The notes beneath the pieces are model-generated. The model was not told the DNA's origin, searched no databases, and saw only the letters and a list, made by a program, of their open reading frames with translations. This document shows positions 28,743 to 41,740 of a stretch of DNA of 64,000 bases, one piece after another. The translations under genes were made by a program, and so were the position numbers. Every line of letters starts with the position of its first letter. The first letter of the stretch is position 1. Origin of the DNA: Xanthomonas translucens pv. cerealis (GTDB taxonomy: Bacteria > Pseudomonadota > Gammaproteobacteria > Xanthomonadales > Xanthomonadaceae); assembly GCF_006838285.1 (NCBI RefSeq), contig NZ_CP038228.1, forward strand, positions 4,216,001-4,280,000. The letters are read 5' to 3'.

Positions 28743-30632
28743 TCACGCCACCCTGCTGCGCCGCGCGCGCTCCAGGTGCACCAGCAGCAGCGAGATCGCC
28801 GCGGGGGTCATACCGGGGATGCGCTGCGCCTGGCCCACGGTTTGCGGGCGCACGCGCAGCAGCTTCTGCTGCACCTCGGCCGACAGCCCGCGCACCTGCG
28901 CGTAGTCGAACGCCTCGGGAATCGGCGTGTCCTCGTGGCGCTGCTGGCGCGCGATCTCGTCGCGCTGGCGGTCCAGGTAGCCGGCGTACTTGATGCCGAT
29001 CTCGACCTGCTCGGCGACCTGCGCGTCGTCCACGCCCGGGCCCAGCGACGGCACCCGCATCAGCGCGGCGTAGTCCAGCTCCGGGCGCTTGATCAGGTCG
29101 AGCACGGTGGTCTCGCGGCTCACCGTCACCCGCAGCGTCGCGGCGACCTCGCGGCCCAGCGCATTGCCCGGCGTGGCCCACAGCGCGCGCAGCCGTTCGT
29201 TCTCCTGCGCCACCGCCTCCTGCTTGGCCTGGAAGCGCGCCCAGCGCGCCTCGCCGACCAGGCGCAAGTCGTGGCCGATGCCGGTCAGGCGCGCGTCGGC
29301 GTTGTCCTCGCGCAGCTGCAGCCGGTATTCGGCGCGGCTGGTGAACATGCGGTACGGCTCGGTGGTGCCGTGGGTGATCAGGTCGTCGATCAGCACGCCG
29401 ATGTAGGCCTGGTCGCGGCGCGGCGACCACGGCTCCAGCCCGCGCGCCTGGCGCGCGGCGTTGAGCCCGGCGATCAGTCCCTGCGCGGCGGCTTCCTCAT
29501 AGCCGGTGGTGCCGTTGATCTGGCCGGCGAAGAACAGCCCCGGCATGGCCTTGGTCTCCAGCGAGGCCTTCAGCCCGCGCGGGTCGAAGAAGTCGTATTC
29601 GATCGCGTAGCCGGGGCGGGTGATGTGGGCGCGCTCGAAACCGCGGATCGAGCGCACCAGCTCCAGCTGCACGTCGAACGGCAGCGAGGTGGAGATGCCG
29701 TTGGGATAGATCTCGGCCACGTCCAGGCCTTCGGGCTCGACGAAGATCTGGTGGCTGGCCTTCTCGGCGAAGCGCACCACCTTGTCCTCGATCGACGGGC
29801 AGTAGCGCGGGCCGATGCCCTCGATCTGGCCGGTGTACAGCGGCGAGCGGTCCAGCGCGCCGCGGATGATGGCGTGGGTGCGCTCGGTGGTATGGGTGAT
29901 CCAGCACGGGACCTGGCGCGGATGCTGGGCGCGTTCGCCCATGAACGACATCACCGGCAGCGGATCGTCGCCGGGCTGCTCTTCCATCGCCGCGTAGTCC
30001 AGGCTGCGCCCGTCGATGCGTGGCGGAGTGCCGGTCTTGAGCCGGTCCACGCCGAAACGGCCGTCGCGCAGCGTCTGCGCCAGCGCGGTGGCCGGCGGGT
30101 CGCCGGCGCGGCCGCCGGCGTACTGGGTCTGGCCGATGTGGATTTTGCCGGCCAGGAAGGTGCCGGCGGTCAGCACTACCGCTGCCGCTTCGAAGCGCAG
30201 GCCGGTCTGGGTGATGGCGCCGCGCACGCGCTCGCCTTGCACGATCAGCGCGTCCACCGCCGCCTGGAACAGGGTCAGGCTGGGCTGCGCCTCGACCAGG
30301 CGCCGGATCGCGCTGCGGTACAGGCTACGGTCGGCCTGGCAGCGGGTGGCGCGTACCGCCGGACCCTTGGAGGCGTTGAGCGTGCGCCACTGGATCCCGG
30401 CCAGGTCGGCGGCATGCGCCATCGCCCCGCCCAACGCATCGATCTCCTTGACCAGGTGGCCCTTGCCGATGCCGCCGATGGCCGGGTTGCAGCTCATCGC
30501 GCCGACCGTCTCCATATTGTGGGTCAGCAGCAGGGTACGCGCGCCGGCGCGCGCGGAGGCCAGCGCCGCCTCGGTGCCGGCATGGCCGCCACCGATCACG
30601 ATGACGTCGTAGCGGTAGAAGGAATCGCTCAT
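28743..30632 (-). CDS. mnmG: tRNA uridine-5-carboxymethylaminomethyl modification enzyme
   Basis: 629 residues, full length. FAD-binding motif [16 protein letters not shown] at the N-terminus, then [57 protein letters not shown] and [19 protein letters not shown], with the C-terminal tRNA-binding helical domain. With MnmE it modifies U34 of tRNAs reading split codon boxes. Single-copy housekeeping gene; a structured sRNA candidate is divergent from its 5' end. Confidence 0.97.
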
Positions 30633-30748
30633 CGGGGACTCGTCGGACGAGTCACGCGGACCGGAATGGGCGCGTTGGCGAGGCGATGCGCACTGGGAGA
30701 GGGTATTTTTGTGTGTTTCATCACAATTTCAGAATTTGGAACTAAAGT

Positions 30749-30764
30749 TGGCATGCGCTCTGCA
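30749..30764 (+). promoter_or_regulatory. Sigma-54 (RpoN) type promoter
   Basis: TGGCATGCGCTCTGCA has GG (30750-30751) and GC (30762-30763) exactly 10 bp apart, as the -24/-12 elements require. The predicted start is near 30775. An AT-rich stretch upstream (30,705-30,748) could aid bending. No activator site was identified. Confidence 0.6.
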
Positions 30765-30774
30765 GATAACCCTA

Positions 30775-30891
30775 CTGCACCCAACGTGGCATTGCGTCAG
30801 GGGCGTACGACTGGAATTGGAACAGGGGCCAGTCACGCGCACGTTGGGGGAGCTGGGGGCCGGTAGTCGGGGGACTGCCGGCCCTTTTTTT
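30775..30891 (+). ncRNA. Candidate sigma-54-dependent structured small RNA, about 117 nt
   Basis: The segment begins at the predicted sigma-54 start and ends in an intrinsic terminator. Internal pairing is strong: CCCAACGTG (30780-30788) with CACGTTGGG (30840-30848). Inside it, GCGT plus GACTGG (30803-30814, AC bulge) pairs with CCAGTC plus ACGC (30829-30838), leaving a 14-nt loop AATTGGAACAGGGG. No ORF with a ribosome site is present and no plus-strand gene follows, so a leader or riboswitch role is unlikely. I do not recognise the RNA family. Confidence 0.6.
30857..30891 (+). terminator. Intrinsic terminator of the sRNA candidate
   Basis: GGGCCGG-T-AGTC pairs with GACT-G-CCGGCCC around a short G loop (12 pairs including one G-T), followed directly by seven T. 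Confidence 0.85.
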
Positions 30892-30936
30892 ATGCGCGCG
30901 ATTCAGGCCCCGCCCCAGCAACCGCAATGCCCGAAC

Positions 30937-30970
30937 GCGAAAAGCCCCGGCGAGCCGGGGCTTTTCGTTT
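30937..30970. terminator. Bidirectional intrinsic terminator
   Basis: AAAAGCCCCGG-CGAG-CCGGGGCTTTT with A and T tracts on both sides. On the minus strand it ends the transcript of the lipoprotein gene at 31134-31685; on the plus strand it would back up the sRNA terminator. Confidence 0.85.
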
Positions 30971-31133
30971 TAGGCGCCGACGCCCGACAGGGCCGGAACA
31001 GGGGGGATCCAGATTTCCCTGTCGGACATCGACATAGACGGTAGGGCGATCCCTTCAGGTCATAAAGCGACGCAGGAGGTCACCCGGTACGCCCTAGAGT
31101 GCGTCTTGTGCCTGCGTGAAATCAAGCTTTTTC

Positions 31134-31685
31134 TTAAGGCTCTAGTGTGCGCTTTGTCCCATTGCTACGCCCCAGATTGCCAGGCCGGGGCGCGGACGGC
31201 CGCGGCTGGGCGGCCGGCCTGGGCGCGCTTGCCGGACGTGACTGCATCGACTGCGGACGCGGCTGCATCGACTGGGGGCTTGGGCCGGCGTTGGCGGCAT
31301 CGGGGCGGCGCAACCGGTCCAGGTCGCGCCACGGCGACTTGACCCGGCCACCGCCACCGCCGATGACCGGCGGCGGACGGTCCGGCGGACGGCCGTTGTC
31401 GTCTGGTCGCGGGCGCGGCTGACGGTAGCGCGGCGGACCATAGTAGTCGCGGGAGTAATACGGGCCGTCGTAGCCGTAGTAGCCGTAGCCGTAATAGCCG
31501 GAGCCATAGCCGTAGGGCTCGGCGCTGTAGGGCGCGTAGTAGCCATCGGAGTAGCCTGCCGGATAGCGGTATTCGACCGTTGGGGCGCCGCGGTAGTAGC
31601 CGCCGCCGTTGTCGGCGTAGTCGTAAGTGGCGCAGCCGCTCAGCGTGGCCAGCAATCCAGCGGCCCAGATCAGGCGCATATTCAT
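31134..31685 (-). CDS. Tyr/Gly/Pro-rich lipoprotein
   Basis: 183 residues. Lipobox LSGC (Cys about residue 18). Residues about 30-85 are dominated by Tyr and Gly (YGYGSGYYGYGYYGYDG), and the second half is Pro/Arg/Ser-rich with repeats (PQSMQPRPQSMQSRP). Low-complexity lipoproteins of this type are common in Xanthomonas and unassigned. The second codon pair offers an alternative ATG two residues in. Envelope location follows from the lipobox; function unknown. Confidence 0.75.
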   Translation of the reverse strand: MNMRLIWAAGLLATLSGCATYDYADNGGGYYRGAPTVEYRYPAGYSDGYYAPYSAEPYGYGSGYYGYGYYGYDGPYYSRDYYGPPRYRQPRPRPDDNGRPPDRPPPVIGGGGGRVKSPWRDLDRLRRPDAANAGPSPQSMQPRPQSMQSRPASAPRPAAQPRPSAPRPGNLGRSNGTKRTLEP

Positions 31686-31850
31686 AGCGAATCCTCTCCC
31701 TGAGGCTGACCGACAGGTTCGACGTATTGCATTGAATGCCCCCTTAACCCGCTTCGTCGGTGATTGAACGCTTAAGTCGCGTACAACGGCTGTGTTGTCC
31801 CGGCAGCCGGCGACAACGCGAACTTGCGACGATACGCTAACCTTTCACGC

Positions 31851-32222
31851 ATGTTCTCATCTTCACTGCCCGTTTTCGCGGATGTGACGGCCGCGGCCGC
31901 GCGGATCGCGCCGCATGCCCAGGTGACCCCGGTCCTGCGCCCGCAGGCGCTGAACGCATTGGCCGGCGCCAGCCTGCACTTCAAGGCCGAACACCTGCAG
32001 CACGACGGTGCGTTCAAGTTCCGCGGCGCCTGCAATGCGGTATGGGCGCTGAGCCAGACGCAGGCTGCGCGTAGCCGCGGCATCTGCTGCCACGTGGTGG
32101 TGCCGGAGGGCGCGCTGGCGGCGGTGCTGGTACAGCCGGAGCGCTTCGCCGGGCGTCGGGTCGGGCTGATTCTGTCCGGCGGCAACGTCGATCTCGACGC
32201 CCTGCCGTGGGGCATGGCGTGA
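31851..32222 (+). pseudogene. Threonine dehydratase-like gene with large internal deletion
   Basis: The first 75 residues match fold-type II PLP dehydratases, including the lysine motif GAFKFRGACNAV. After CHVVVPEGA the sequence jumps to the family's C-terminus (LAAVLVQPERFAGRRVGLILSGGNVDLDALPW). About 180-200 central residues, with most of the PLP site, are missing, yet the frame is kept. A 123-residue product could not form the enzyme. ATG at 31851; the stop overlaps the next gene's start. Confidence 0.8.
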
Positions 32223-41663: not shown

Positions 41664-41740
41664 GCGCCCGTAGCTCAGCCGGATAGAGTAGTGGCTTCCG
41701 AAGCCATTGGTCGGGGGTTCGAATCCCTCCGGGCGCACCA
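41664..41740 (+). tRNA. tRNA-Arg (anticodon CCG)
   Basis: 77 nt including an encoded CCA. The acceptor stem GCGCCCG pairs fully with CGGGCGC. The D arm is present, and the anticodon loop TTCCGAA gives CCG. The T arm GGGGGTTCGAATCCCTC is canonical. Reads CGG codons. Confidence 0.97.

Follow-up and report, generated by a model that had tools for sequence, protein, structure and literature searches.

A conserved sigma-54 element upstream of the small RNA asX1 and a neighbouring hairpin with a complementary loop suggest a two-RNA system in Xanthomonas and its relatives

The small RNA asX1 (Rfam RF02235) was reportedly described by Schmidtke in 2012 (doi 10.1093/nar/gkr904). For the arrangement proposed here, in which asX1 would act on a second RNA encoded beside it (the partner), the GlmY/GlmZ pair, in which sigma-54 is involved, offers a comparison. 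That pair likewise contains a decoy small RNA (PMC7073468); no GlmY/GlmZ match was found at Rfam gathering scores in the window, that is, in the whole stretch of 64,000 nucleotides from Xanthomonas translucens pv. cerealis that was analysed (NZ_CP038228.1, positions 4,216,001 to 4,280,000). In Campylobacter, the small RNA CJnc190 has a cis-encoded antagonist, CJnc180, which is antisense to it and extensively complementary (PMC8687705), whereas the two genes considered here do not overlap and pairing would be loop to loop. As proposed for asX1, CJnc230 (FlmE) of Campylobacter depends on RpoN, and another small RNA, CJnc170 (FlmR), has the opposite effect; CJnc230 derives from the flgE transcript, and direct pairing of the two is not described in the accessible text (PMC11187230). 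The same bacterial family as that of the partner contains sX13 (RF02232), which has hairpins with C-rich loops (PMC3771888); the partner differs from it in sequence and genome place and has no Rfam match. Pairing with G-rich ribosome-binding sites has been published for both sX13 (PMC3771888) and CJnc190 (PMC8687705).

At the locus studied here, plus-strand positions 30778–30891 match asX1 over the full length of the Rfam model (115.7 bits, gathering score 70) and represent the same RNA as entry RF02235, with a predicted 5' end at 30775–30778. This contradicts the original prediction, made from the sequence alone, that no annotated RNA matches the segment, and the reading as a new RNA family was rejected on the same grounds. 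Apart from asX1, an ordinary tRNA gene at 41664–41737 is the only Rfam match of the window at gathering scores. The accessible literature on asX1, RF02235 and RpoN-dependent small RNAs of Xanthomonas holds no link between asX1 and sigma-54, and the literature searched names neither a regulator nor a target. To that extent, asX1 is already known, while its sigma-54 promoter, its partner and its diverged forms beyond the family appear undescribed, possibly with the exception of the original description of asX1, which may say more. Expression of asX1 has been reported for X. campestris pv. raphani (PMC4652430) and for Xylella cells (PMC12189769), and a prediction of RpoN sites in Xylella covered only regions upstream of annotated genes (PMC3224663). 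The Rfam model finds asX1 in 266 of 297 genomes and 46 of 54 genera of the family, and in all 20 genomes of the window's genus. Under stricter filters, 24 of 151 genomes taken across the order were positive, all 24 of them within the family, with none among the 126 outside it.

The sequence at 30775–30891 (117 nt) indeed contains the predicted structured segment with a 14-nt loop and a terminator. It folds at −62.4 kcal/mol, compared with −44.0 for shuffled sequences (z −5.65; 0 of 200 shuffles as low). Three elements make up this fold: an outer stem, a 6-bp inner hairpin whose 14-nt loop is AAUUGGAACAGGGG (30815–30828), and a terminator of 14 bp with seven T behind it. The inner hairpin, hairpin 2 (30809–30834, plus strand; stem GACTGG/CCAGTC, loop AATTGGAACAGGGG), is defined by sequence, alignment fold and covariation; its loop is open in the alignment fold, shows two weak internal pairs in the single-sequence fold, and carries the motif GGAACAGGGG at 30819–30828. 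The terminator stem, which the T run follows, was placed by a terminator scan at 30855–30886, plus strand. The predicted stems also withstand covariation analysis: 23 of the 29 pairs are changed on both sides with the pair kept, and the score reaches 0.437, compared with 0.205 in shuffles (0 of 500 reached it) and no more than 0.122 when the alignment is slid. On none of the five measures did any of the 500 shuffles or slid controls attain the value of the true alignment. Across loci, the open loop of hairpin 2 hardly varies. A function as a CsrB/RsmZ-type sequester of RsmA was rejected, as the GGA motifs are not conserved; the loop GGA is missing in three loci of genus g42 and in locus L094, and the linker GGA in genus g17.

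Upstream of asX1, the −24/−12 element TTGGCATGCGCTCTGC occupies 30748–30763 of the plus strand, with GG at 30750–30751, ten intervening bases and GC at 30762–30763, the spacing that had been predicted. In the window, TTGGCANRNNNNNTGC occurs once against 0.35 expected, and 28 of 100 shuffles contain at least one copy; the single copy is thus weak evidence, and the case rests on conservation. The pattern TGGC[AG]-N7-TGC was found within 36 nt upstream of asX1 in all 98 aligned loci from 31 genera, a non-random draw of best matches plus a spread over genera, and the same test gave 0 of 98 for each of eight neighbouring 36-nt control windows; the predicted boxes are hence conserved. After genus weighting, T-G-G-C and G-C stand at 100% while the flanks are at background, and the distance from the GC box to the Rfam start is 12–15 nt in 97 of 98 loci (best-score rule), which suits a sigma-54 start. 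At the level of sequence, asX1 is thereby placed behind a putative sigma-54 element conserved in the family, and its transcription would be driven by sigma-54. RpoN is encoded in 293 of the 297 family genomes, with two copies in the window's genome; genomes with a single RpoN (e.g. G005 and G008) also hold asX1, so the second copy is not needed for its presence. The sole genome at least 90% complete and without RpoN (G034) is also without asX1. Two genomes with asX1 and no RpoN match (G080 and G279, both 86% complete) run against this link and probably reflect missing sequence.

The surroundings of the element hold further features. No block common to all genera, as a candidate enhancer-binding site, was found upstream of about −34; within mnmG, silent-site conservation is somewhat raised at the first codons (0.79, mean 0.67), and no other stretch stands out clearly. 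About 60 nt upstream of asX1 lies a CRP/Clp-like palindrome, TGTGT-N6-TCACA (30710–30725), which is complete in 17 of 17 loci of genus g17 and in 3 of 20 of genus g1 (with a half site in all 20 of the latter) and mostly absent elsewhere; it may serve asX1 or mnmG. The latter (28743–30632, minus strand; assigned by its reading frame, with an mnmG start motif upstream in most loci) diverges from asX1. On the plus strand, the nearest credible reading frame downstream begins near 31824, at a distance of about 0.93 kb from asX1, which supports the earlier view that the RNA is not a leader. This frame, 31824–32222, has a threonine-dehydratase-type look at only 132 residues, and its relatives are longer frames cut by the ends of the loci. 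The one other sigma-54 site of the window's genome with a downstream GCAC (L130, G000:C1:345853) precedes a type IV pilin gene. The promoter-plus-GCAC pattern occurs in 280 of the 297 genomes; it is unspecific for asX1 and was dropped as an asX1 count because many of the extra matches are pilin promoters.

The ten loop bases GGAACAGGGG have a single further copy in the window, at 30995–31004 within a larger block, GGAACAGGGGGGATCC. In 95 of 98 loci, a related block follows asX1 at a distance of no more than 700 nt, and the three exceptions all belong to genus g3. The block lies within a hairpin about 80 nt downstream of asX1 on the minus strand that the original prediction had overlooked (30971–31034; loop segment GGATCCCCCCTGTTCC, the complement of plus-strand 30995–31010; defined by fold, covariation and covariance model). 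Its fold reaches z −4.57 on the minus strand and −0.51 on the plus strand; the minus-strand pairs of 72 distinct sequences comprise 1116 Watson-Crick, 197 G-U and 14 A-C among 1368 cells; and compensatory changes affect both sides of 13 of 19 pairs (44 sequences), with a covariation score of 0.356 compared with 0.239 in shuffles (0 of 500 reached it) and no more than 0.138 when slid. Fold, G-U and A-C counts and covariation therefore indicate an RNA that is read from the minus strand and whose loop is complementary to that of asX1. A location on the plus strand was rejected in view of the poor fold, the same counts and the covariance-model score (13.3 bits, compared with 83.3 on the minus strand), and a peptide gene is disfavoured by single-base indels seen by eye among the loci. 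Neither the partner hairpin nor sX13 (RF02232) gave an Rfam match, at gathering scores in the window or at E values up to 5 in 30500–31200. The partner's own model has one match each in 277 of the 297 family genomes.

With asX1 called by its Rfam model and the partner by its own covariance model (11 asX1-negative genomes by subtraction), 265 of the 297 genomes contain both RNAs, one asX1 alone, 12 the partner alone and 19 neither (Fisher p 6e-21, uncorrected for kinship, with 8 of the 19 double negatives from the one genus g9). The sole asX1-only genome (G282) is 87% complete, and in at least two of the 12 partner-only genomes (G040 and G094) a sigma-54 site precedes a diverged asX1. All eight sampled g9 genomes, missing both RNAs, have RpoN. 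In genus g3, the partner lies upstream of asX1 on the same strand in two genomes (G002 and G132) and about 0.9 kb downstream of it in a third (G082), so the order has changed while linkage has held. In 93 of 94 loci, the partner loop GGAUCCCCCCUGUUCC and the asX1 loop GGAACAGGGG can form 9–11 consecutive Watson-Crick pairs; the exception has five, and with G-U allowed all 94 reach at least nine. The loop duplex averages −21.0 kcal/mol, compared with −10.4 for shuffled partner segments, and 0.16% of shuffles reach the observed mean. Because both loops are nearly invariant, intermolecular covariation is invisible within the family, leaving complementarity without covariation. Nested co-folding of the two RNAs gains only −1.1 kcal/mol, and nested co-folding models are unable to represent kissing loops.

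Altogether, we consider it probable, with some reserve, that a sigma-54-dependent asX1 base-pairs through its apical loop with the C-rich loop of an adjacent second RNA and acts as its antagonist. The partner would be transcribed from an apparent sigma-70-type promoter beside asX1, convergently in most genomes, and the two RNAs would meet in the cell and form a loop-loop complex. The most likely outcome of such pairing would be that asX1 serves as a decoy of the partner, so that sigma-54 activity would release whatever the partner controls; which of the two is the regulator and which the regulated, we infer. By analogy with sX13 and CJnc190, the C-rich loop of the partner would suit G-rich ribosome-binding sites. 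That the targets of asX1 are instead mRNAs or a different small RNA, for instance sX13, with the neighbouring hairpin as one of several partners, is possible and on the whole unlikely: sX13 has C-rich loops (PMC3771888), is present in 284 of the 297 genomes and shows by eye, in the window's genome, a CCCCUG stretch giving six pairs, yet the neighbouring loop offers 9–11 pairs and is co-inherited and linked. The idea of asX1 as a sponge for sX13, which is more widely spread than asX1, is a weak rival.

For the proposed loop-loop pairing, expression of the partner is the weakest link. A transcript of about 154 nt (30936–31089, minus strand) is predicted from promoter-like sequence and a weak terminator-like stem. 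Its −35-like TTGATT (31120–31125) and −10-like CACTCT (31096–31101), both on the minus strand, conform to a pattern, TTGnnn-N16-19-CANNCT, that 78 of 94 loci have upstream of the partner and 0 of 94 have in a control window, the pattern having been chosen after the loci had been seen. A consensus scan for sigma-70 promoters reported none in 29900–31900, a stretch that includes these boxes. The palindrome AAAAGCCCCGGCGAGCCGGGGCTTTT (30940–30965), recognized from sequence and cross-locus comparison, may be a weak terminator that escaped the terminator scanner, which in 29900–31900 reported only that of asX1. Terminator-like hairpins follow the partner in 13 of 30 genera, two of them being the asX1 terminator itself, and are missing in 17. 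We know of no transcript of the partner hairpin, and this was counted against the two-RNA reading, as were the negative scan for a sigma-70 promoter, the fruitless search for an activator site, the small gain on nested co-folding and the g9 genomes with RpoN and neither RNA. Between the promoter-like sequence and the hairpin lies a conserved block, TGACC-N5-GCGTC-N6-TGACC (about 31058–31085, minus strand); an RNA helix was rejected for it, as neither strand gave a consensus structure.

Beside the hairpin and on its strand, a tyrosine-rich lipoprotein-like gene (31134–31685, minus strand; a reading frame with no Pfam match above cut-off) is conserved, with its end 100 nt before the hairpin. The latter could hence be the 3' end of the mRNA of this gene, with asX1 controlling the stability or termination of its neighbour, and the pair does stay linked. 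Against this speak the promoter-like sequence that 78 of 94 loci have between the stop codon and the hairpin, the different genes that adjoin the hairpin in other families and the rearrangements in genus g3; we judge such an mRNA end rather unlikely and infer that the partner is transcribed separately.

Outside the family, the partner model matches 32 of 126 genomes at 35–44 bits (23 in family f12, five in f11, three in f3 and one in f5). The 20 loci fetched from these all keep GGAT[T/A]CCCCCTGTTCC in the hairpin, and 14 of them have TGGCA-N7-TGC 90–330 nt upstream, on the opposite strand. Each of these 14 has GCAC where the RNA would be expected to begin and carries CAGGGG at offset 42–54, a motif that 13% of random windows from the same loci contain; in the eight loci scanned, Rfam recognized none of the diverged RNAs. 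For f12 and f3 (15 loci), the longest pairing is 6–7 nt, is not significant per locus (p 0.19–0.73) and falls in some loci elsewhere than at the CAGGGG site; one f12 locus (L176) is rearranged and has no in-place sigma-54 site, and the f5 locus has a 10-nt match and no sigma-54 site. In f11, a short RNA with its own terminator lies behind TGGCCCG-N4-NTGC in 4 of 4 loci and carries CAGGGGG; CAGGGGGAATC or longer pairs with the local partner loop over 11–13 nt in three of the four (0 of 500 shuffles as long), and the exception, L186, has 8 nt elsewhere (p 0.058), while by eye its CAGGGGGAGTCC would pair with one G-U. Judged from these sequences, related families appear to keep a diverged sigma-54 RNA with CAGGGG, much shorter and in another pairing register in f11.

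In f12 and f3, 5 of 11 loci show complementarity of at least six bases between the partner loop and the ribosome-binding sites of a small protein; 8.6% of shuffles score as high, and this suggestive result was not used as evidence. Beyond the partner in these families (L172–L191), a second sigma-54-like site precedes a protein of about 60 residues with an HDL[ML]IE motif. Pfam gave no match to this protein above cut-off; 295 relatives were found, several named Dokdonella or Rhodanobacteraceae.

For the order, we see an even chance that an old two-RNA switch extends across several families, consisting of a C-rich-loop hairpin RNA with a sigma-70-type promoter and a sigma-54-dependent decoy with CAGGGG; one family would have rebuilt the decoy in a much shorter form with shifted register, keeping the sigma-54-type promoter, the place and the complementarity. 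The retention of complementarity to its own partner in another register in f11, together with a partner that folds and covaries on the minus strand only, so that its loop is the complement, also makes it improbable that GGAACAGGGG is common to both sites through protein binding or local duplication with the loops unpaired; for this stand the identical ten bases that a plus-strand reading gives at both sites and the invariance of the loops, which precludes a covariation test inside the family. Least credible by far is that a sigma-70 promoter reads asX1 and the −24/−12 element is coincidental, as a candidate −10, GATAAC at 30765–30770 (by eye), varies while the sigma-54 element is kept in all 98 loci, and a consensus scanner found no sigma-70 promoter in 29900–31900.

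In summary, the conserved sigma-54 element provides a testable regulator for asX1, and the co-inherited partner with its complementary loop a testable mechanism. If the proposed decoy function of asX1 is true, an RNA pair would carry sigma-54 signals, such as those for nitrogen or pili, on to translation, and this pair would have been retained throughout an order with many plant-associated members. Its order-wide spread and changed pairing register would then constitute a natural experiment on the evolution of RNA pairs.
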